Assembly: GCF_003627095.1 (NCBI RefSeq)
Contig: NZ_CP032627.1
Coordinates: 2,604,001 to 2,668,000, forward strand
Source: Lactococcus allomyrinae
GTDB lineage: Bacteria; Bacillota; Bacilli; Lactobacillales; Streptococcaceae
Length of the DNA stretch: 64,000 nt
Direction: 5' to 3'
Shown here: positions 1,823 through 63,380 of the stretch, piece after piece
How positions within the stretch are numbered: position 1 is the first letter of the stretch
Layout of the letters: every line of letters starts with the position of its first letter
Program-made: the position numbers and the translations under genes
Notes under the pieces: model-generated
The model's input: the letters and a program-made list of their open reading frames with translations, nothing else
Databases searched by the model: none
Told to the model about the DNA's origin: nothing

Positions 1823-3082
1823 TCAATAAGTGAGTACAAAATTTTTCTTTTTACCGCGACGAATCACAGTGACCTGTCCGTCAATTTTGTCAGCAGCTGA
1901 CAGAGTATAAGTTAGGTCTGTCAGGCGCTCACCATTGATGTAAATCGCACCGTTTGTAATATCTTCTCTAGCTTGACGTTTAGAGCTTTCAATACCAGCA
2001 GAAATCAGTAGTTCAACTAATGACAAATCTTGGTCAGCACTGACAGTATAGTGGGGAACAGCTTTCAAACCAGCCAAAATATCTTTGGCTTCTAAGGCTT
2101 TCAAATCTCCTCCACCAAAAAGAACTTGCGTAATTTCGACAGCGTGTTCATAAGCTTCTGTACCGTGAACTAATGTCACCACTTCTTTTGCTAAAGTTTT
2201 TTGAGCCAAACGTTCATGAGGTGCAGCTTCAAATTTGATACGGATTTCTTCGATTTCACCTAGTGTCAAAAAAGTAAAAATTTTGAGCATTTTGATTGCA
2301 TCAGCATCATCAACATTGAGCCAAAATTGGTACATTTCATAAGGTGAAGTTTTTTCAGCGTCAAGCCAAATTGCATTTCCTTCAGATTTACCAAATTTTT
2401 TACCGGTACTATCAGTGATAAGGGGAATGGTGATCACGTGTCCTTGTTTGTCAGCTTTCCGACGCAGCAATTCTGTTCCAGCGGTCATATTTCCCCATTG
2501 GTCAGAACCTCCAAGTTGTAACGTGACATTATGAAGTTGATTCAGTTCGTAAAAGTCATAACCTTGCATGATTTGATAAGCAAACTCGGTGTAAGAAATA
2601 CCCGTCTCCATCCGTTTTTTAACAGATTCTTTGCTAATCATATAATTTACGGTGAAATATTTACCAACATCACGCAAAAAATCAATGAAAGTTAAGTTTT
2701 CAAACCAATTATAGTTGTTGGTCATCTCGGCTTTATTTTCGCCATTTTCAAAATCAAGAAACCGTTCAAGTTGACTTCGTATTTTACCAGACCATTCTGT
2801 GACAGTTTCTTTAGTTTGAAGAGAACGTTCATCATCTTTAAAAGAAGGGTCTCCGATGAGCCCAGTTGCCCCACCAACAAGTGCATAGGGTTTATGCCCA
2901 GCGAGTTGCAAACGACGCATTGTCAAAATTAGAACAAGATTTCCTAAATGAAGAGAATCTGCAGTAGGGTCATAACCGACATAATAAGAAACCATTCCCT
3001 CCGTGAGCGCCTTACGGAGCAGCTCTTCGTCAGTTGTTTGGAAAATCAAACCACGTGCTTTAAGTTCGTCAAAAATGTTCAT
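1823..3082 (-). CDS. tyrS: Tyrosyl-tRNA synthetase
   Basis: A 419-residue class Ic aminoacyl-tRNA synthetase that charges tRNA-Tyr with tyrosine in the cytoplasm. The HIGH-like motif is seen as [10 protein letters not shown] near residue 40, the tyrosine-binding motif as GGSDQWGN near 192, and the KMSKS loop as KFGKS near 230. A C-terminal S4 RNA-binding domain follows (about 350-415, [10 protein letters not shown]). Length is normal for the family. It is divergent from the PBP gene. Its roughly 240-nt leader holds no T-box consensus that I can see and consists instead of two copies of a hairpin-promoter repeat. Confidence 0.97.
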
Positions 3083-3087
3083 TTGTT

Positions 3088-3342
3088 AAATCCTTTCGTT
3101 TAAGATGGGAGCAACACTGTCAAGAAGCGTAAAGAAATAAAAAAATGTGGCTCTACTCGTAGAACGGCTTCCATTTTGTTTTTTCTCAAGATTCTGGTGT
3201 TGCGAGCTCAGTTATACCGAGATGTGAATATGATTGGCAAGAAATGATGAAAAATAGGAAATGTCAAGGCTATTTGCATAGCAAAAATTATGGAATTTAT
3301 CTTTTTTCGCTCATTTTTAATCGTACGAATTCAATTATACCA
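3088..3342 (-). repeat. Tandem hairpin-promoter modules in the tyrS leader (copy R1)
   Basis: Read on the minus strand this is about two tandem modules. Each has an imperfect hairpin of about 75-90 nt followed by a promoter-like end. Module 1 ends TTGCCA-18 nt-TATAAC with CACATCTCGG in the spacer. Module 2 contains TTGACAGTGTTGCTCCCATCTT. The second module aligns over more than 100 nt with 24556-24670 upstream of mvaD, including AGTTCG, GAGTAGA and CTTGACGGTGTTGCTC. The stretch makes up nearly all of the tyrS leader. Confidence 0.7.
3334..3342 (-). promoter_or_regulatory. tyrS: Extended -10 promoter of tyrS
   Basis: TGGTATAAT on the minus strand. Transcription from here would give a leader of about 240 nt before the tyrS ATG, spanning the two hairpin modules. 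It lies only about 40 bp from the divergent PBP promoter. Confidence 0.55.
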
Positions 3343-6593: not shown

Positions 6594-6763
6594 TATACTA
6601 GCTCATCTTTAGTTTCTCCTAGAAATTTATTAGATGAACTGCGTATATACTGCCTTGCGACGTTTGGGAAAATCAAGGCTTTTCTTATCCGTAACTTTGA
6701 CAAAATGCGTCAAGCACAAACTTTAACTTTTGGGCGGTACGTTTGAAAGTTAAGCAGTATTAG
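6594..6763. repeat. MITE-like intergenic repeat, copy B
   Basis: It starts TATACTAGCTCATC, has a hairpin (CTCATCT...AGATGAAC), TATACTGCCTTGCG, and ends GAAAGTTAAGCAGTATTAG. The blocks are the same as in the copies at 908-1050 and 7839-8054, with a different core. Its right end overlaps the pepA stop codon (6760-6762), so the element abuts that gene with no spare base. Confidence 0.65.
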
Positions 6764-7827
6764 TAATTTTTGACTTGAGCAACTTTCTCAGCATCAAGAG
6801 ATTTTATGATAGCACGCAAAAAGTTTTGGGCCTGATTGAAGTCATCAAGGCTGAAAATCGTTTGGTGACTGTGAATATAGCGAGCAACAACACCGATTGT
6901 CGTTGAAGGAACACCAGCGTTTGCTAGGTGAGCAGCGCCAGCATCAGTTCCGCCTTTGGCGATGTAAACTTGTGTCTTGATATTTGCATCTTCAGCAGTA
7001 TCAAGCAGGAAATTTTTCATGCCGGGAAGCATGATATGACCTGGGTCAAAGAAGCGTAGCGTTGTACCAAGACCAAGGCGCCCATTGCTATCCCCAAAAG
7101 TATCACCTGCTGGTGAGCAATCTACAGCAAAGAATAAGTCAGGATTAAACTTTGTTGTTGCTACTTTTGCACCACGTAGTCCAACTTCTTCTTGGACATT
7201 TGCCCCAATAATCAGTGTAATCGGAAGTTCTTTATTTTCCAAAAATTCGAGTAATTCAAGAATCATCAAGCAGCCATAACGATTATCCCAAGCTTTAGAG
7301 ATGACATTTTTACCATTTGCGCTCAGGATTGTTTCTGTTTCTGGAATGATGATGTCGCCTTGAGCAACGCCATATTCAGCAAGTTCAGTGGCATTATCAA
7401 AACCAGCATCAAAAATGATATCTGAAATGGCTGGGATACTAGGAGTTGCACCTGTTCCACGAAGAAGATGTGGAGGTAAGCCACCGGTCACAACAGGGAT
7501 TTTTTTGCCTTGACGTGTGAAGAGGGTAAAGCGTTGTGCCGAAACGACAAGAGGGTTCCATCCACCAAGTGAAACAACACGTAAAGTTCCGTCAGACTTG
7601 ATTTCAGATACCATGAATCCTACTTCATCCATATGTGCAGCTACCATGATGCGCGGTGCATTTTCTTTTTTGCTTTCTTTGGTAACAAAAATACCACCAA
7701 GTCCATCAAATTCAGGAGTGTAGCCAAGTTCAATCATACGTTGTTTGAGGTATTCACGTACAGGTGCTTCAAATCCAGAGGTTGCTTGAAGCTCAGTGAG
7801 TGTTTTGATTTTGTCGAAAAGTTCCAT
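6760..7827 (-). CDS. pepA: Glutamyl aminopeptidase, M42 family
   Basis: A 355-residue cytoplasmic metallo-aminopeptidase that removes N-terminal Glu or Asp from peptides; it is part of the lactococcal proteolytic system. Metal ligands and catalytic residues are recognisable in AAHMDEVGF (near 68), AWDNRYG (near 180), QEEVG (near 213), AVDCSP (near 236) and RYIHSHQ (near 320). Length and end (KNY) match lactococcal PepA. AAGGAGAAAAA precedes the ATG. It is flanked on both sides by MITE-like repeats, so it is probably monocistronic. Confidence 0.95.
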   Translation of the reverse strand: MELFDKIKTLTELQATSGFEAPVREYLKQRMIELGYTPEFDGLGGIFVTKESKKENAPRIMVAAHMDEVGFMVSEIKSDGTLRVVSLGGWNPLVVSAQRFTLFTRQGKKIPVVTGGLPPHLLRGTGATPSIPAISDIIFDAGFDNATELAEYGVAQGDIIIPETETILSANGKNVISKAWDNRYGCLMILELLEFLENKELPITLIIGANVQEEVGLRGAKVATTKFNPDLFFAVDCSPAGDTFGDSNGRLGLGTTLRFFDPGHIMLPGMKNFLLDTAEDANIKTQVYIAKGGTDAGAAHLANAGVPSTTIGVVARYIHSHQTIFSLDDFNQAQNFLRAIIKSLDAEKVAQVKNY

Positions 7828-7838
7828 TTTTTCTCCTT

Positions 7839-8054
7839 TATACTAGTTCATCTCTGAAGCTGTGTTAGCAGATTTAGTAGTTGAACTGCAGATATACTGC
7901 TTTTAGTTTTGCTTGCTAAGCAAACGGATAGCGTAGACCATTCATAGAATGGTGCACAAAGTGTGTATCTTGTGACGATTGGAAAAAGCAATTTTTTGCT
8001 CATTCGTAAACTTTAATTTCTAAAAGAAACTTTTAGAAATTAAAATAGTATTAG
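7839..8054. repeat. MITE-like intergenic repeat, copy C
   Basis: This fills most of the 360-bp gap between pepA and the next gene. It starts TATACTAGTTCATC, with hairpin AGTTCATCTCTGAA...TTGAACT, then TATACTGC, a core with further small hairpins (CCATTCATAGAATGG), then the AATTTCTAAAAG...CTTTTAGAAATT hairpin and AGTATTAG. It is the longest of the three close copies because the core is larger. Confidence 0.65.
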
Positions 8055-8176
8055 ACAAGGTGTGAGGCGTTTGTTTAACTGCTAACTCACAGCACACCAT
8101 TATTATGTCAAAATTTACTGACAGACTTTTGTCAGTACGATTTTGAGGATTTACACTATAATTATAGCAGGATTTA

Positions 8177-10589: not shown

Positions 10590-12367
<1,778 letters not shown>

Positions 12368-17045: not shown

Positions 17046-17921
17046 ATGGAGATAGCTGAAATACAACCCCAACTTTTTGGTCAATTTTCTACGATATTGC
17101 GGCAGAAAAAATTGAGTCATGCCTACTTGTTTTCAGGTAGTTTTGGTTCTTTTGAAATGGCAATTTGGTTAAGTCAAGCGATATTTTGTGAAAATTTGAC
17201 AGATGGAATTCCTTGTGGGCGGTGCCGTCCTTGTAGACTTGTTGTTAAGCAGGAATTTGCGGATTTACATCTCATTGTGCCAGAAGGACAAACGATAAAA
17301 ACAGCACAGATTCGGGAGTTAACGCAAGTTTTTTCAGAAGCTGGTTATGAAGGAACAAGGCAGGTTGTTTTGATTCGTGATGCAGAAAAAATGCATCCGA
17401 ATGCAGCGAATGCTTTATTAAAATCTATCGAGGAGCCTGAGAGTGATGTCGTTGTATTTTTGTTAACAAATAATGAAAATATGATATTGCAAACGATAAA
17501 ATCTAGGACACAAGTGATTACATTTCCCAAAAATACCTTGTATTTACAGGAACTTTTGGAAAAAGAAGGAATTTTACGAACCCAAGCGGAGCTTCTTGCG
17601 GAAACTTCTGATTCATTAGAGACTGCCCTTAGCATTTCGCAACAAAGCTGGTTTATCGAGGGACTGAAGAAATTGCAGCAATTTGTAAAATTGTTAAAAA
17701 CATCAACTGATGAGACTTTTTTATATTTGTCAGAGCTGACAGATACTTTTGATGATAAAGAGAAGCAAGATCAGGCATTTGATTTACTTTTACAGCTGTT
17801 GGCTCAAGAAAAAATGAGTTCGCATCTTTTGAAAACGTTTAAAGCAGTAAGAATGTGGAGAAGTAACGTACGATTTGAGTCGTGTCTTGCTTTCGTGGTA
17901 ATTGATGTTTATGATAATTAA
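17046..17921 (+). CDS. holB: DNA polymerase III delta-prime subunit
   Basis: A 291-residue clamp-loader subunit that helps load the beta clamp during replication. The zinc module is clear: CENLTDGIPCGRCRPC (about residues 49-64). The Walker A region is degenerate (SGSFGSFEMA), as expected for delta-prime. MHPNAANALLKSIEEPE (about 116-132) is the conserved clamp-loader SRC-like region. Start 17046 is preferred because AGAGAGG lies 5 nt upstream; an in-frame ATG at 17016 is possible but lacks a site. It precedes ricT, yabA and rsmI. Confidence 0.92.
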   Translation: MEIAEIQPQLFGQFSTILRQKKLSHAYLFSGSFGSFEMAIWLSQAIFCENLTDGIPCGRCRPCRLVVKQEFADLHLIVPEGQTIKTAQIRELTQVFSEAGYEGTRQVVLIRDAEKMHPNAANALLKSIEEPESDVVVFLLTNNENMILQTIKSRTQVITFPKNTLYLQELLEKEGILRTQAELLAETSDSLETALSISQQSWFIEGLKKLQQFVKLLKTSTDETFLYLSELTDTFDDKEKQDQAFDLLLQLLAQEKMSSHLLKTFKAVRMWRSNVRFESCLAFVVIDVYDN

Positions 17922-17974
17922 GTTCACAGCACCAGCAGCTATGATACAACTTGATAGTTAAAGGGCAAGATTCT

Positions 17975-18174
17975 AGAGCATTAGAGAAAGTAAAGTGTAA
18001 GCTACTCTTTGAGTAGAATATTTCTTTATGCTTCTTGATGGTGAGACTCATAGCTTGTAATTGAGTTCTAAGCAGTCTTGCATCTTGATATAACTGAGTT
18101 CACATGATTAGAAATGAGTGAAAAAAGATAAACTTTATCATTGCTTACCAATCATGCTCACATCTTAGTATAAT
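17975..18174 (+). repeat. Tandem hairpin-promoter modules upstream of ricT (copy R2)
   Basis: This fills the 280-bp gap between holB and ricT. Module 1 has CTACTCTTTGAGTAGA, CTTCTTGATGGTGAGACTCATAGCTTG and TAATTGAGTTC. A partial unit GCATCTTGATATAACTGAGTTC follows. Module 2 has a hairpin (TTAGAAATGAGTGAAAAAAG...), then TTACCAATCATGCTCACATCTTAG and TATAAT at 18169-18174. Order and wording match the copies upstream of mvaD, tsaE and tyrS. The last TATAAT is the probable ricT promoter. Confidence 0.7.
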
Positions 18175-21674: not shown

Positions 21675-21690
21675 TTGTCAGTACTGACAG
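21675..21690. repeat. CTGTCAG palindrome, intergenic
   Basis: TTGTCAGTACTGACAG: fifteen of sixteen bases of the motif, just upstream of the -10 of the 63-residue gene. Confidence 0.75.
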
Positions 21691-21861
21691 AAATTTGTCA
21701 TTGACGAATTTCATGGTAAAAGCTTGATTTTCGTGAAGAAATTTTATAAAATTGTCAAGTACGTTTTCGTATCTAACAGGTTAAATGTGATGAGCTATGC
21801 TACAAGGCGAAGTATTTAATCGGTGAATAAAGCTTTGCGTAAGCAGAGTGTCGGAGGCAAA

Positions 21862-24439: not shown

Positions 24440-24786
24440 TTGTGTAAAAACTGAGTTTAATGTCTGAAAAAAGATAAATATTTCCAAGAAACTTCGTTTC
24501 TCTCCGAGCTTTTCTATTTTTCATCATTTCTTGCTAATCGTACTCACATCTTGCTATAACTGAGTTCGAAATACAAGTAGTTATGAGAAAAGATAAAATG
24601 GAATCTGTTCTTTGAGTAGAACCATATTTTTCTACACTTCTTGACGGTGTTGCTCACATCTTGTAATTGAGTTCGTCTGCTTAGAACTCAGGAAAATAGA
24701 CAAAAGTCTCCAATGAGCAAAGCTCATCTCCGTCTTTTCCTAATTTTCATGAGTTCTGGACAATCAGCCTCACATCTTGATATAAT
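24440..24786 (+). repeat. Tandem hairpin-promoter modules upstream of mvaD (copy R3)
   Basis: Three modules fill the 390-bp gap. Module 1 ends TTGCTAATCGTACTCACATCTTGC-TATAACTGAGTTCG (about 24530-24572). Module 2 has TTTGAGTAGA and ends TTGACGGTGTTGCTCACATCTTG (to about 24670). Module 3 (about 24677-24786) is an imperfect hairpin AGAACTCAGGAAAATAGAC...CTAATTTTCATGAGTTCT with an inner ATGAGC/GCTCAT stem, then TGGACA-18 nt-TATAAT. The final promoter drives mvaD. Module 3 is nearly the same as 62817-62927 upstream of tsaE. Confidence 0.75.
24755..24786 (+). promoter_or_regulatory. mvaD: mvaD promoter within the repeat, leaderless arrangement
   Basis: TGGACA, 18-nt spacer with CTCACATCTTGA, TATAAT (24781-24786), six nucleotides, ATG. 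The promoter is the terminal part of the repeat module and no Shine-Dalgarno is present. Confidence 0.65.
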
Positions 24787-24792
24787 AGTTTC

Positions 24793-25749
24793 ATGAAAAA
24801 TATTGTCACTGCTAGAGCGCATACGAATATTGCGCTAATTAAATATTGGGGAAAGTCAAATATTGACCTCAATCTTCCAACAACGAGTTCTTTGTCAATG
24901 ACGTTAGATTCTTTTTATACAACGACTTCAGTGGAGTTCACGGATAAAGCTACTGACAGCTTGATTTTAAATTCTGTCAGTGCTGACAGTACTCGTATCA
25001 GTAAGTTTTTGGATATGATGCGCACTCAATACGATGATTTTCCAAAAATTTCAGTGATTTCTAAAAATCATGTACCAACTGCTGCAGGTTTGGCTTCAAG
25101 TGCTTCAAGTTTTGCTGCCTTGACCGCAGCGATGTTCGAAATTTTGGAGCTGGAAAAAAACAAACAAGAGATGTCCAGAATTGCTAGACGAGGGTCTGGG
25201 TCAGCTTCACGTTCTATTTTTGGAAACTTCGCAGTGTGGAATAAAGGCTGGGATGATGTGTCGTCCTATGCTGAGTCTTTCTACAATCAAGATATCGGTT
25301 TATCTATGATTGTTGCTGAGATTTCGGCTAATCAGAAGAAAATGTCTTCAACAAAAGGAATGCAACTTGCTCAAACAGCTCCTACTTACAACTCATGGGT
25401 AAAAAAATCAGCGCTTCAACTTGAAGAGATGAAATCAGCAATTAGTCAAAAGGATATTGAAAAAATTGGTCTAATCGCCCAAGACAATGCGTTAGGGATG
25501 CATGAACAAAATCGCTTATGTCAAATACCATTTGATTATTTTACCAATCAAACAAGACGAATTATTGATTTTACTAATTACTGTTACAATAGCGGCTTGC
25601 TCGCATTTGTCACTATTGATGCAGGACCAAATGTAAAAATTATAACAGATAGAGCAACTGAGCAGAAACTCTTAACCCGATTTCGTGCTGAATTTCCAGA
25701 AATGACTTTTGATGTGGCTCACGCTGGAGGCGGCTATGAATATCTCTAA
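24793..25749 (+). CDS. mvaD: Diphosphomevalonate decarboxylase
   Basis: A 318-residue GHMP-superfamily enzyme that converts mevalonate 5-diphosphate to isopentenyl diphosphate with ATP. Motifs: NIALIKYWGK (about 12-21), AAGLASSASSFAALTAA (about 98-114) and RRGSGSASRS (about 137-146). Size is normal. It starts the mvaD-mvaK2-fni operon, whose genes overlap by 14 nt and 1 nt. A perfect CTGTCAGTGCTGACAG lies in the coding region (24974-24989), read as SVSADS. Confidence 0.96.
   Translation: MKNIVTARAHTNIALIKYWGKSNIDLNLPTTSSLSMTLDSFYTTTSVEFTDKATDSLILNSVSADSTRISKFLDMMRTQYDDFPKISVISKNHVPTAAGLASSASSFAALTAAMFEILELEKNKQEMSRIARRGSGSASRSIFGNFAVWNKGWDDVSSYAESFYNQDIGLSMIVAEISANQKKMSSTKGMQLAQTAPTYNSWVKKSALQLEEMKSAISQKDIEKIGLIAQDNALGMHEQNRLCQIPFDYFTNQTRRIIDFTNYCYNSGLLAFVTIDAGPNVKIITDRATEQKLLTRFRAEFPEMTFDVAHAGGGYEYL
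24974..24989. repeat. CTGTCAG palindrome inside mvaD
   Basis: CTGTCAGTGCTGACAG within the coding sequence, with a single CTGACAG half site about 20 nt upstream. Confidence 0.85.
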
Positions 25750-29250: not shown

Positions 29251-29417
29251 TAATAAAATGAAAGAGAAAATTTTGAAGGGAGCTTCGTTTGTTCCCCTTG
29301 AAGTCATGAAAAAGATCCTCTGTTGTCCATTCTTACTTCATTGCTAAAGCGATTAGTCGAATGATAACTGAAACTTGGGTTTTTCATAACTTCAAAACAG
29401 TCGAACTCACATTTTGT

Positions 29418-34087: not shown

Positions 34088-34413
34088 GATTCAATTTAAC
34101 AGTTAAAAGTGAGGAGCGTTAAGCTCCTTTGCTATATCTTGGGTTTTGTAATTTGTTTTGACTTTTGAAACAAAAAATCCAAGTGATATACAATCAAAAA
34201 TGAGCGATTTATTGCAGATATTCTGTAATGGATTGACTAAAATGTAGCAAATAATAAAGTTTTGAGCGTCTGAAGTTGTGGAGAACCTAATACCAAAATA
34301 TTAGTGTCTGAATTCTAAACATGATATCTTAAATAACGAAAGTATAAGAATAGGAGTCAAGTTGAGATTTTATAATTTCAAAATAAGCGCTCTCACATTT
34401 TAAAGGAGAAATT
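34088..34413 (+). other. Gap between ptcB and ptcA with hairpins
   Basis: A weak hairpin GGAGC/GCTCC (34112-34126) is followed by a long imperfect stem ATATCTTGGGTTTT...AAAAATCCAAGTGATAT (about 34135-34185). The rest is AT-rich. Just before the ptcA ribosome-binding site the sequence reads GCGCTCTCACATTTTAAAGGAG, close to the CTCACATCTT end of the hairpin-promoter repeats. No gene. The gap may attenuate or stabilise the ptcB message. Confidence 0.4.
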
Positions 34414-34764
34414 ATGAGTGATAAATACGAAAATCCAACCAGTGATGAATACATGGGAGTAGTAATGGGAATTATCATGAGTGGTGGTAATGCCAAAGGG
34501 TTGGCTTTTCAAGCGATTCAACAAGCTAAAGATGGTGATTTTGAAGCAGCTGAAAATTCATTGAACGATGCAGGAGAACAACTTCGCGAAGCTCATGATG
34601 TCCAGACAGACCTTTTGACACGTTTAGCTCAAGGGGAAAAAATTGGTTGGAATCTTTATATGGTTCATGCTCAGGACCATTTGATGAATGCGATTACTTT
34701 TAAAGACCTTGCGGTTGAAGTGGTTAACCAAGAAAAACGCATCCAAGCCTTGGAAAATAAATAA
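34414..34764 (+). CDS. ptcA: PTS cellobiose/lactose-family IIA component
   Basis: A 116-residue IIA of the lactose/cellobiose family, an all-helical trimer. The phospho-His is H85 in MVHAQDHLM, with D88 matching the metal-binding Asp of lactococcal IIA-Lac. It takes phosphate from HPr and passes it to PtcB. AAAGGAGAAATT precedes the ATG. The gene is followed by a terminator and is 327 nt from ptcB. Confidence 0.94.
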   Translation: MSDKYENPTSDEYMGVVMGIIMSGGNAKGLAFQAIQQAKDGDFEAAENSLNDAGEQLREAHDVQTDLLTRLAQGEKIGWNLYMVHAQDHLMNAITFKDLAVEVVNQEKRIQALENK

Positions 34765-42323: not shown

Positions 42324-42352
42324 CTGTCAGTATACTGACAGAAGGTTTTTTC
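42324..42352 (+). terminator. ligA terminator containing the CTGTCAG palindrome
   Basis: CTGTCAG-TATA-CTGACAG (42324-42341) directly after the stop, followed by AAGGTTTTTT. Confidence 0.75.
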
Positions 42353-42415
42353 TATAACTCATCTGTTGTAAAAGTCATGACATTATTTTAACTTTATGGA
42401 GTAAAAATGTTGTTA

Positions 42416-46177: not shown

Positions 46178-49100
46178 ATGAAAAAAACAATGGATGGAAA
46201 CATGGCGGCGGCACATATTGCCTACGCTTTTTCAGAAATTGCTGTAATTTATCCGATTACTCCAAGTTCACCGATGGCAGATTACACGGATGCGTGGTCT
46301 GTGGCTGGGCGCAAAAACATTTGGGGACAAACGGTAAAAATTACAGAAATGCAATCAGAAGCCGGTGCAGCAGGTGCCATGCACGGTGTTCTCAAAGCAG
46401 GGGGAATTGCGACAACATATACGGCTTCACAAGGGCTGCTTTTGATGTTACCCAATATGTATAAAATGGCGGGCGAACTTTTACCAACGGTGATTCATGT
46501 GGCAGCGCGTGCGGTAGCAACGGGGGCGCTCAACATTTTTGGAGACCAGTCGGATGTAATGTCTGCACGTTCCACAGGGTTCGCCATGTTAGCTGAGTCA
46601 AGTGTACAAGAAGTGATGGATTTATCAGCCGTCGCACATTTAGCTACGATTGAGGGCTCAGTTCCTTTCATGAATTTCTTTGACGGTTTCAGGACGAGTC
46701 ATGAGATTCAAAAAATTGATGTCATTGATTACGAGGATTTAGCGCCACTTATCAATACTGACAAACTGACAGCTTTTCGCAATCGTGCGATGAACCCTGA
46801 TCATCCAACAGTTTCAGGAACCAATCAGAACGCTGATATTTATTTTCAACAACGAGAAACAGTCAATGCCTATTATGATGTGTTACCAAGCATTGTTCAA
46901 AAATACATGAACAAAATCAATGCGCTGCGTGGGACGGATTATGATTTAGTCAATTATTACGGTGCTTGTGATGCGACTGAGGTCATTGTCAGCATGGGGT
47001 CAGTCGCTGGGACGATTGAGCAGACAGTAGACTATCTGAATAGTAGAGGACGCAAAGTTGGATTTTTGAACATTCACTTGTATCGTCCATTTCCAACAGT
47101 AAATTTCCTTGATAAATTGCCGAAAAGTGTGCAAAATATTGCAGTGCTTGACCGTACAAAAGAGTCAGGTTCAAATGGTGAACCACTCTTTCTTGATGTG
47201 CAGTCTGCATTGTTTGACGAAAATGTAAAAGTCATCGGCGGACGCTACGGTGTGGGCGGAAAAGATACGCGTCCAGAGCATATTGTTGCAGTTTTTGATG
47301 AGCTTCTAAAGGCAAAATCTCGTCGGCAATTTACCATCGGAATCACTGATGACGTGACAAATTTGTCGCTGTCAGTGAATTCTAAACTTGATTTGACACC
47401 GTCAGATACTTTCCAAGCGAAATTTTGGGGCTTTGGCTCTGATGGAACAGTCGGGGCAAACAAAGCTGCCATCAAAATCATTGGTGATAACACAGATAAG
47501 TATGTGCAAGCAGCATTTGAGTACGATTCCAAAAAGTCAGGAGGGCTGACTATCAGCCATCTGCGCTTTGGCGACAGCCCCATCAAGTCAGAATACATGA
47601 CTGCAACGCTTGATTTTGTCGCGTGCCACAATACGACTTATGTCAGAAAATATGATTTGACGAAAGATTTGAAAGTAGGTGGAACCCTTCTTTTAAATAC
47701 CTCTTGGGATGATGAACATCTTTCAAAAAATTTGCCAAGCAAGTTGAAACGCTATATTGGCGAAAACCAGATTAAATTTTACACGATAGATGCGGCAAAA
47801 ATCGCGAGAGAAACGGGATTAGACCGACGTATTAATACCATCATGCAAGTCGCATTTTTCAAACTGGCTGAGGTTATGCCTTTTGACATAGCTTATGAAA
47901 TTCTGAAAAATGATGCACAAAAATACGCACGCAAATCGCCAAAAATTGTGGAGCAAAACCTAAATGCGATGGAAATGGCACTCGATTCTCTCCACGAAGT
48001 CCATGTTCCAGCAGATTGGGCAAGCGCACAGGAACGCGAATTAAAGCCAATTTTAGCCGCAAGTGCAACGAAAAAATACGTTTTCGAGATTGTCAACAAA
48101 ACCAATGCTTTCGAGGGCGACGAGCTTTCTGTGCAAGATTTGGTGGATAATGGCATGACGAGAGGCAGCAGTCCGCTTGGGACGGCGAGTTACGAGAAGC
48201 GCGGCATTGCGCTTGAAGTCCCAGAGTGGAATGCAGATGCCTGCATTCAATGCAATGAGTGCGCTTTCGTCTGCCCGCACGCAGCGATACGCCCATTTCT
48301 CGTCGATGAAGATGAGTGGAATGTTGCACCAGAAGGCTTCCAAGTCATGGATTATAAGGGAAATGATGGTCTGAAATATCGGATACAAGTTTCTGTCGAA
48401 GACTGCACGGGATGTGGTTTATGTGTTGAAGCTTGTCCCAAAAAAGGTGAAGCGTTAAAAATGGTTCCTTATGAATCACAGCAGGAACAAGCGGTTAATT
48501 GGGCTTTTACGCAAACTTTGAAAACAAAAGAAAATCCAATGGCTGGGCGACTCACAGCTGCAAGTACGCAGTTTGAAAAACCTTTGTTTGAGTTTTCAGG
48601 TGCTTGTTCAGGTTGTGGCGAAACACCTTATATCAAACTTTTGACGCAAATGTTTGGTGATCGGATGATGATTTCAAATGCGACAGGTTGCTCATCAATT
48701 TATGGAGGAACGCAAGCGACGCCTTATACCACAAATGATGAGGGACAAGGACCCGCTTGGTCAAATTCACTTTTTGAAGATAATGCTGAATACGGTTATG
48801 GGATGCATATGGCATCAGTAACTCGCCGCCAAAAACTTGCTGATGAAGTTCTGTCAGTACTGACAGAAATGTCAGAGGACTTACAACTCCTTGCTAAAGA
48901 TTGGGCAACGCATCTTTTTGATAGTGAAGGAACCAGAGCGCGTGCTGAGAAGTTCAAGGCACTGCTCAAAGAAGAACTGACGGCTTTAGTGGACCAAGAA
49001 AAAACAGATGAAGTCGCTGATAGAAAGCTGTCAGTATTAAATGCAATCTATAAGCAAAAAGATCAATTTGTCAAACCGACCCAATGGATTTTCGGTGGCG

Positions 49101-59649: not shown

Positions 59650-59847
59650 ATACTAGTTCCACTTTAAAATTCAACAGGATTTTATTAATTTTAGTGGTAA
59701 GATAAAACAGACAACAAGCATCGGCCGTGTAGCGTGATATCATGGAGATAATGGGTTTAACGTATGGTGTATGAAGTCTACCAGTACCATGAAGTTAGAC
59801 TCTATAGGATTTAATTGAGTTTGTCCGCTTAAAGTTGGGCTAATAAT
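59650..59847. repeat. MITE-like repeat in the pgmB leader (copy H), with one arm of a long inverted repeat
   Basis: It begins TATACTAGTTCCACTTTAAAATTC and ends CTTAAAGTTGGGCTAATA. Positions 59692-59757 (TAGTGGTAAGATAAAACAGA...TGGAGATAATGG) are repeated in reverse at 61751-61819 with few differences, including ACACGGCCGATG versus its partner. The two arms enclose pgmB and the esterase gene. Confidence 0.65.
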
Positions 59848-60830: not shown

Positions 60831-60860
60831 AAACCTGTCAGTATACTGACAGGTTTTTTT
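60831..60860. terminator. Bidirectional terminator containing the CTGTCAG palindrome
   Basis: AAAACCTGTCAG-TATA-CTGACAGGTTTTTTT (palindrome 60835-60852) between the convergent pgmB and esterase genes. Confidence 0.9.
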
Positions 60861-61750: not shown

Positions 61751-61819
61751 AACCATCATTATCTCCATGATATCGCGCTACACGGACGATGGTCGTTGTC
61801 TGTTTTATCTTACCACTTA
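61751..61819. repeat. Second arm of the long inverted repeat (partner of 59692-59757)
   Basis: AACCATCATTATCTCCATGATATCG...GTCTGTTTTATCTTACCACTTA is the reverse complement of 59692-59757 with few mismatches. The surrounding 300-bp gap (61651-61939) otherwise holds only AT-rich sequence and a possible -10 (TAGAAT, 61927-61932) for the next gene. Confidence 0.75.
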
Positions 61820-62639: not shown

Positions 62640-62927
62640 TTGCGTTGGAAAGTACAGAATTAAAATATCATCAGAAAAGAAGTGGAAAAAGATAAACTTT
62701 TCCGAGATTTCCTATCTCCGCGCTTTCGCTACTACGCTGTCCGTTTGCTTAGCAAGAGCCAACTGGCATTTCTCTACGCTTCTTGGTAGTGTCGTTCACA
62801 TCTTATAATTGAGTTTAACTGCTTAGAACCCGTGAAAATAGATAAAAGTATTCAATGAGTAAAGCTCATCTCCATCTTTTCCTAATTTTCTGAGTTCTGG
62901 ACAATCATCCTCACATCTTGGTATAAT
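62640..62927 (+). repeat. Tandem hairpin-promoter modules upstream of tsaE (copy R4)
   Basis: This fills the 310-bp gap. Module 1 (about 62690-62815) ends CTACGCTTCTTGGTAGTGTCGTTCACATCTTATAATTGAGTTTAACTG. Module 2 (about 62817-62927) has TTAGAACCCGTGAAAATAGA...TCTTTTCCTAATTTTCTGAGTTCT (hairpin), inner ATGAGT/GCTCAT, then TGGACA-18 nt-TATAAT. It is nearly the same as the last module before mvaD (24677-24786). Confidence 0.75.
62898..62927 (+). promoter_or_regulatory. tsaE: tsaE promoter within the repeat, leaderless arrangement
   Basis: TGGACA, spacer of 18 nt with CTCACATCTTGG, TATAAT (62922-62927), six nucleotides, ATG at 62934. Confidence 0.65.
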
Positions 62928-62933
62928 AAAATC

Positions 62934-63380
62934 ATGAAATTTAACGAAGAAGAAATGCTGAAATTTGCAGAGAAATTGGGACGTTTATTGAAAGCACAGG
63001 ATGTGATTGTGTTGACGGGTGAATTGGGTGCAGGGAAAACAACATTTACTAAAGGATTAGCTTTAGGGCTTGATATTCATCAAATGGTGAAAAGTCCGAC
63101 TTATACAATTGTTCGCGAACTTGAGGGACGTTTGCCGCTGTATCACATGGATGTTTATAGAATTGGTGATGATCCTGATAGTTTTGACTTAGATGATTAT
63201 TTGTTTGGTGAGGGAGTATCTGTCATCGAATGGGGTGAAATGTTAGGAACGGATTTACCTCAAAATTATTTGGAAGTTGTTTTTGACAAGTATTCTCCTG
63301 AAATTGTTAATGACAAAGAACGCGAAATTGTGTTAAAAGCTCATGGTAAACGCTACGAAGAACTCATAGAAAAATTATAA
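62934..63380 (+). CDS. tsaE: tRNA threonylcarbamoyladenosine biosynthesis ATPase TsaE
   Basis: A 148-residue P-loop ATPase that, with TsaB and TsaD, makes t6A37 in ANN-decoding tRNAs. Walker A GELGAGKTTFTKGLA lies at about 30-44; SPTYTIVREL (about 58) and YHMDVYRI (about 73) with VIEWGEML are typical. The start has no ribosome-binding site and lies six bases after the -10 of the upstream repeat module. The LCP gene follows after 137 nt with its own promoter. Confidence 0.95.
   Translation: MKFNEEEMLKFAEKLGRLLKAQDVIVLTGELGAGKTTFTKGLALGLDIHQMVKSPTYTIVRELEGRLPLYHMDVYRIGDDPDSFDLDDYLFGEGVSVIEWGEMLGTDLPQNYLEVVFDKYSPEIVNDKEREIVLKAHGKRYEELIEKL

Follow-up and report, generated by a model that had tools for sequence, protein, structure and literature searches.

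We describe a family of hairpin-shaped repeats that are probably non-autonomous mobile elements, targeting the -10 boxes of promoters and rebuilding the promoter that they interrupt. The stretch of DNA analyzed (hereafter the window; 64 kb, G000:C1:2604001-2668000) belongs to a genome of 2.76 Mb (G000) and hosts 15 matches, with antisense echoes counted in, to a covariance model (R1) that was built from 25 short units (alignment A1). The units fall into three sequence types (A, B, and C) and, by the site that follows their right end, into class 1 (an extended -10 box) and class 2 (a Shine-Dalgarno sequence or start codon).

Hairpin units in the window and across the genus

A preliminary description had claimed hairpin units before mvaD, tyrS, ricT, and tsaE, and both the sequence and the R1 matches place units at all four loci. 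Three of them follow one another on the + strand ahead of mvaD (24793..25749, +), which encodes diphosphomevalonate decarboxylase (Pfam MVD-like_N, 5e-57; MDD_C, 7.1e-14). Unit 1 (type A, 24451..24553, 81.2 bits) has a degenerate left flank, GTAAAAACTGAGTT, and the right end CTCACATCTTGCTATAAC, and unit 2 (type B, 24560..24663, 68.0 bits) is joined by CTCACATCTTGTAATTGAGTTCG to unit 3, a TGTAA junction that is also found ahead of several type C units. The mvaD-proximal unit 3 (type C, 24667..24779, 119.7 bits) carries a -35-like TGGACA in its right arm and is followed by the predicted -10 of mvaD, TATAAT at 24781..24786, which lies 6 nt before the ATG at 24793. The arrangement before tsaE (62934..63380, +; Pfam TsaE, 2.4e-35) is similar, with a degraded long unit whose right arm is B-like (62660..62805, +; a weak match of 23.7 bits, E 0.0025), a tsaE-proximal type C unit (62809..62920, +; 104.5 bits), and a predicted -10, TATAAT at 62922..62927 (+), again 6 nt before the ATG (62934).

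On the minus strand, tyrS (1823..3082; Pfam tRNA-synt_1b, 2.4e-83, and SYY_C-terminal) is preceded by a type A unit (3218..3334, 95.5 bits; left flank TGGTATAAT, right end ..CTCGGTATAAC) and by a gene-proximal type B unit (3101..3211, 65.6 bits). The latter, assigned to class 2a, ends directly before the tyrS Shine-Dalgarno (CATCTTAAACGAAAGGA) and not at a TATAAT; the preliminary description, too, had left tyrS out of its TATAAT cases. In arrays of this kind, transcription from the upstream promoter would run through the next hairpin and make it a leader, as at tyrS. The fourth locus, on the + strand, contains a degraded type B-like unit (17918..18057; a weak match of 17.4 bits, E 0.085) and a short type A unit (18094..18167, 50.5 bits); the TATAAT at 18169..18174 is preceded by TAG rather than TGN, and the start codon follows 26 nt later. 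Pfam confirms the gene here as encoding a PSP1-domain protein, the name RicT being that of the preliminary description.

Three further places on the + strand may hold units. A weak unit (29283..29416, 24.5 bits) ends 1 nt before the ATG (29418) of a WYL-domain regulator. In addition, a loose scan with the right-end motif pointed to a possible class 2 right-half remnant before groEL (approximately 10640..10723, motif at about 10713; the downstream groEL is supported by a Cpn60 Pfam match) and to what may be a right-end remnant ahead of the Shine-Dalgarno that belongs to a PTS IIA gene at 34414 (approximately 34370..34402, motif at about 34392; Pfam PTS_IIA), neither of which is an R1 match.

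The window also contains repeats of other kinds. A dispersed repeat, GAACTGC..ATATACTGCC .. AAACTTTAATTTCTAAA..AGAAATTAAACAGTATTAGTA, is present in three copies (940-1052, 6625-6765, and 7872-8055; families D7 and D12), and a terminator-like palindrome, CTGTCAGTACTGACAG / ACTGACAGAAATTTCTGTCAGT, recurs, for example, at 21676-21700, 42324-42357, 48852-48876, and 60835-60852 (families D2, D4, and D8-D10). An inverted repeat (59693-59753 / 61757-61817) has 61-nt arms that are 93% complementary and 2003 nt apart.

The hairpin units are not restricted to the four loci. A BLAST search of G000 with the 353-nt segment before mvaD (24440-24792) returned 70 matches at E<=10 and 52 at E<=0.001, and when as many as 3 mismatches were allowed, the right end CTCACATCTTGNTATAA occurred 111 times versus 34 for the reversed pattern. 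For CTCACATCTTG taken alone, allowing at most 2 mismatches, the enrichment in the window is only mild (36 versus a mean of 23; 1 of 100 shuffles as high). Among 150 candidates scored per genome, some antisense echoes included, R1 matches at E<=0.01 numbered 105 in G000, which bears out the proposal of a dispersed element with many copies genome-wide, 96 in G011, and 30 in G015. Lower numbers were obtained for G001, G012, and G016 (8 each), G007 (7), G005 and G017 (5 each), and G008 and G009 (1 each), those of G005 and G009 being close to the threshold, and there were no such matches among the 150 candidates scored in each of the other 7 of the 18 genus genomes.

In the G000 stretches examined, 131 R1 matches, some of them weak, were reduced to 106 units after overlap removal, the weakest of which may be chance. 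By site, 43 are labelled nested (including three without a following unit: L146, L163, and L038:2011), 31 are class 1 (including two doubtful cases, L032:3146 and L145:753), and 13 lie before a Shine-Dalgarno. A further 5 are within 8 nt of a start codon, and the rest have (n = 10) or lack (n = 4) a start within 110 nt.

Unit anatomy and the two classes of right end

A unit extends from YTGAGTTCG to CTCACATCTTG, with a core of about 113 nt; some copies contain a long central segment, and others have shrunk to about 37 nt. The arms are CACGATTAG../..TTGCCAATCGT in type A, CAACACC../..TTGACGGTGTTG in type B, and GGCTGCTTAG../..TGGACAAGCAGCC in type C. They are complementary within each type, and consensus folding gives one common fold for the three unlike arm sequences. 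The outermost ends, YTGAGTTC and CTCACATCTTG, have only TGAG/CTCA in common and are not mutual inverted repeats. Both arms belong to the same type in 58 of 69 units, and degraded, composite, and chance units are among the 11 discordant ones, which were kept in the set. An Rfam scan at the gathering threshold returned one tRNA only and no family for the hairpin repeat.

Stem covariation, which the preliminary description had proposed as a check, is present above both shuffled and slid controls; given this and the copy number, neither of the outcomes that the preliminary description had named as refuting its reading was seen. The 19 consensus pairs on alignment A1 are 94.7% paired versus 82.7% in shuffled alignments, and 60 cells are changed on both sides of a pair versus 21.8 (0 of 500 shuffles as high), with partner-slid controls giving at most 18. 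Two of the five measures do not support covariation: neither the count of doubly changed pairs (8 versus 6.8; 58 of 500) nor that of further pair types (17 versus 20.0; 499 of 500) exceeded the shuffles. The A1 sequences form three related groups and thus represent few independent covariation events.

Class 1 units end in CTCACATCTTGN-TATAAT, i.e., an extended -10 of the form CTCACATCTTG-N-TATAAT. Of 97 class 1 right ends from G000 and G011, 92 have a -35-like hexamer (at least 4 of 6 positions as in TTGACA) 18 nt before the TATAAT; this set was picked partly by likeness to hexamer-bearing arm templates and includes many copies, nested units, and orthologues rather than 97 independent cases. 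At every other spacer from 12 to 25 nt, the same ends gave 0 of 97, and among 46 other right ends, the hexamer was found at spacer 18 in 17. Given the template-based choice, the 92 of 97 reflects a fixed geometry in a copied family and not independent selection. The hexamers themselves differ by type (TTGCCA/TTGCAA, TTGACG, and TGGACA), with the position the same. An outward promoter had been proposed for the element, and the promoter-like end, TATAAT with a hexamer 18 nt upstream, agrees with this; judged by its consensus, the class 1 end would act as a promoter. The imperfect hairpin of the originally described design likewise stands, whereas the -35-like hexamer does not follow the hairpin but overlaps a bulge in its right arm in the predicted fold.

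Class 2 units end in CTCACATCTTA or similar, before a Shine-Dalgarno or start codon. Among 20 stretches from 7 other genomes, G015 contributes five, which are class 1; those from G001, G007, G008, G012, G016, and G017 belong to class 2 or are of unclear class. Some class 2 sites are common to several species, with units at the same gene starts in G001, G007, and G016 and in G012 and G016. Class 2, found at Shine-Dalgarno sites across the genus, is probably older than class 1. For one class 2 unit, comparison with an empty counterpart suggests a duplication of about 5 bp, TTAAA.

In four G000 units (L143:2567-, L143:10557-, which scores only 35 bits, L146, where the gene may instead start later, after a GGAG of its own, and L163), a Shine-Dalgarno-like (A)AGGA ends at the left end of the unit and an ATG follows 1-3 nt after the right end. 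This arrangement is kept in G011 for L143:2567-. An example of a class 2 unit between Shine-Dalgarno and ATG is G000 1129269-1129434, kept in G011. A closed hairpin would set the two signals roughly 11 nt apart (counted by hand). For the gene at G000 1129239, an 80-residue query yielded only 41-52% identical matches outside G000 and G011, and hence there is no empty site for this case.

Proposed insertion at -10 boxes and competing explanations

We propose that the target of a class 1 unit would be a promoter's extended -10 box (TGNTATAAT), that an enzyme presumably acting in trans would carry out the insertion, and that the insertion would duplicate at least NTATAA. The gene-facing right arm would supply a -35-like hexamer whose distance to the duplicated TATAAT is exactly 18 nt, leaving the gene with a complete promoter and a predicted start site that is unchanged, with the native -35 displaced. 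The rebuilt -10 would itself be a target, and therefore units would stack head to tail in one orientation, the contents of arrays would turn over while the flanks stay, and copies would be retained by tolerance rather than benefit.

Comparison with relatives that lack units at the same genes is consistent with a -10 that was there before the unit. At mvaD, unit-free G001, G007, and G016 read GATATAATAGTTTC-ATG, and G000 (C unit) and G011 (B unit) both read CTTGATATAATAGTTTC-ATG; the MvaD proteins of the relatives quoted are 78-79% identical. Upstream of mvaD, G016 has the same sequence as L. taiwanensis (L046), and G005 agrees with L. hircilactis (L047); the assignment of G000 to the genus Lactococcus is based on these named near relatives. 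At tsaE, TATAATAAAATC-ATG is found in unit-free G001 and G007, as in G000 and G011. At nadD, G016 (TTGATATAATCAAAAC-ATG) and G009 (TGTTATAATCAACTC-ATG) match filled G000 in the -10 and its spacing. Read by eye, TATAAT is exactly 6 nt before the ATG in 9 of 15 other genomes for mvaD, 8 of 16 for tsaE, and 4 of 16 for nadD; in the remaining relatives, the gene has a Shine-Dalgarno leader, lacks such a box, or starts at an unclear position. Relatives in which the -10 is lacking, such as G001, G007, and G012 with a Shine-Dalgarno leader at nadD, count against the proposal. Between G000 and G011, most aligned stretches of which are 89-97% identical, one site filled in G000 is empty in G011 (..TTGATAAAAATGATTTTGGTATAATATAAACATG) and has a plausible native -35. 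A unit at G000 330698-330824 is absent from G011, and GGTATAA flanks it on both sides.

It is possible, if somewhat doubtful, that the elements do not actively target the -10 and insert instead at any AT-rich 5-6-mer, with only those insertions surviving that rebuild a promoter or lie at a Shine-Dalgarno and all others being purged. The left flanks of class 2 copies are indeed varied and AT-rich, and the bases after CATCTT are not the same in the two classes, so what is seen could be the outcome of selection. Yet of the 63 non-nested G000 units in the stretches examined, 31 (two doubtful) are at an extended -10 and 13 near a Shine-Dalgarno; within 110 nt of the 4 others noted above and of 5 of the 31, there is no start in the same direction that opens a long frame; and harmless places, such as convergent gaps, should have retained copies.

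The contents of arrays differ between G000 and G011 within flanks that are kept. From 29 paired gene-proximal right ends, three were dropped (one class 2, two not orthologous), and at 17 of the remaining 26 orthologous sites, the proximal unit type, judged by the right arm, differs between the two genomes. The gene-side N is kept at 17 of these 26 sites, 11 of which are among the 17 type-switched ones, and a left outer flank is recognizably common at 8 of 12 sites (by eye). Identity of units to their type consensus, taken as a measure of age within arrays, revealed no clear gradient.

If NTATAA is duplicated upon insertion, the base before TATAA should agree on the left and right of a unit. 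It does so in 22 of 31 nested units versus a shuffle mean of 9.4 (0 of 2000 as high); by genome, these are 10 of the 15 nested units from G000 and 12 of the 16 from G011. The match persists where the neighbor belongs to a different type or, twice, has no type assigned (17 of 24 versus a mean of 7.1), which is not what tandem duplication would give. Outer, non-nested units, a group that includes TGTAA-joined units and a few chance rows, showed no excess (10 of 38 versus a mean of 10.0), and the duplication is therefore not visible at the oldest sites. These units may be old and decayed, or they may be evidence against the duplication model.

The latter result is also what would be seen if promoter-and-leader modules were copied by recombination (tandem duplication or gene conversion) and not transposed, NTATAA simply belonging to what is copied. 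At G000 1047418-1047779, three nearly identical A units in tandem have the appearance of a tandem duplication, array contents reshuffle between kept flanks, and no mobilizing enzyme was found among the Y1 and UPF0236 transposases searched. We nevertheless consider such copying unlikely, since the N match extends to neighbors of unlike type, copies occur at many unrelated loci, and unit-free relatives hold a -10 with the same gene-side bases.

The preliminary description had also raised the possibility that the units wire unrelated housekeeping genes to one signal, which is very improbable: although housekeeping genes do carry them, covarying pairs imply that structure matters, and some class 2 sites are common to several species, the genes (mvaD, tsaE, tyrS, PSP1/ricT, nadD, and others) form no coherent set by eye, the proximal type differs at 17 of 26 sites, the gene-proximal hairpin would lie upstream of the predicted start and so outside the mRNA, and Rfam holds no matching family at the gathering threshold. 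Because of this gene mix and the type switching, a regulon is unlikely, and a selfish, tolerated element fits better. Most likely, the repeat is such an element that lands where the parts it breaks can be rebuilt.

The distance from class 1 ends to start codons was considered as a sign that leaderless genes are targeted. It is exactly 6 nt for 13 of 28 ends in G000 and 14 of 30 in G011 and 6-7 nt for 14 of 28 and 15 of 30, respectively (a class 2 site at distance -5 and a site with a degraded unit after it are counted in each set). Among native extended -10 boxes, a start lies at 6-7 nt for 10 of 32 boxes of the G000 stretches and for 11 of 29 boxes of G011; the differences (Fisher p 0.19 and 0.43) do not support such targeting, and the leaderless link looks like a property of the genus. 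That native boxes of both genomes so commonly have a start at this distance suggests that leaderless mRNAs are frequent in this genus.

Candidate mobilizers and known systems

Mobility of the IS200/IS605 (REP-type) kind was rejected, as G000 has no match to the Y1 (HuH) transposase PF01797, for which 5 of 14 control genomes were positive. A single PF06782/UPF0236 transposase gene is present in G000 (L207, G000:C1:1827936-1829021), which we take to be ISLre2-type. It has possible 17-nt inverted repeats (GACAAGAACACTATTTT type) that do not resemble the unit ends, and an ISLre2-type donor was likewise rejected. Thus, neither of these two transposase families in G000 provided an enzyme with matching ends. 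A left-end pattern gave 159 matches versus 121 for the reversed control, and five further stretches inspected, from 100 of the left-end matches, contained units or solitary left ends only and no long element.

The preliminary description had compared the repeat to the pneumococcal BOX elements in concept, with a different sequence, and the likeness in concept is supported; the sequence relation was compared through Rfam only. According to the parts of PMC3049150 considered here, BOX (boxA/B/C), RUP, and SPRITE are, like the present units, short modular intergenic repeats with predicted RNA stem-loops and mutual insertion. They are judged parasitic there, and boxA and boxC can stimulate downstream expression. 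The same parts describe over-representation between convergent genes and no -10 targeting (PMC3049150), whereas our units lie upstream of genes in one orientation and with a fixed -35/-10 geometry. BOX is modular, A-B-C with a variable middle; here, some copies have long central segments, and each part of a tandem is a complete unit that has a promoter-like end of its own. The Correia elements of Neisseria, likewise MITE-like, can generate an outward promoter at an end (parts of PMC2649163 and PMC3049150), but they carry 26-bp inverted repeats at their ends (PMC3049150, in part), and the units described here have unlike ends and a whole -10 as their putative target. The literature considered also includes PMC10969869 and PMC3942029.

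In the portion of the literature considered, the nearest precedent found for promoter-directed insertion is that of TnGBS, ISLre2, and ISKra4, prokaryotic Mutator-like transposase systems that insert 15-17 bp upstream of the -35. The present unit differs in that it abuts the -10, at a position other than that 15-17-bp interval, and brings its own -35-like hexamer. For their part, Correia elements insert at TA. In hybrid promoters formed by insertion sequences, the mobile element gives the -35 and the host the -10, at junctions that happen to fit; the units described here differ in having an 18-nt spacing in 92 of 97 ends and an apparent duplication of the -10. A literature search with subscription papers and preprints outside its scope found no description of this hairpin repeat.

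Mobile DNA must avoid harming its host, and the promoter-aware elements that we found described insert beside a promoter, whereas this repeat seems to enter one and restore it. Tentatively, and a little short of an even chance, we suggest that the full scheme has the -10 itself as target and an end pre-built with a -35, so that the promoter is regenerated to the nucleotide, leaderless genes included, and the new -10 becomes the next landing site; a sister class would land at Shine-Dalgarno sequences, where a hairpin between Shine-Dalgarno and ATG may rejoin them. If true, this would amount to natural promoter swapping, in which the promoter strength of essential genes could change without moving the start site, and would explain how approximately 100 insertions are tolerated beside housekeeping genes. 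It would also make recognition of the -10 box by a transposition machinery testable and offer compact, interchangeable promoter cassettes.

In being short (a core of about 113 nt) and having many dispersed copies (105 model matches among 150 scored), the units resemble MITEs. Other MITE-like repeats (AACTTAGCAAGTGCGTGCTA.. and GAAGTCAAGACTTATTCAGTGGGAG..) differ between G000 and G011 by clean insertion, for example at L130, L116, L125, and L127 of G011 and at 128459-128577 of G000, and some of them have central hairpin segments in common with the long units.
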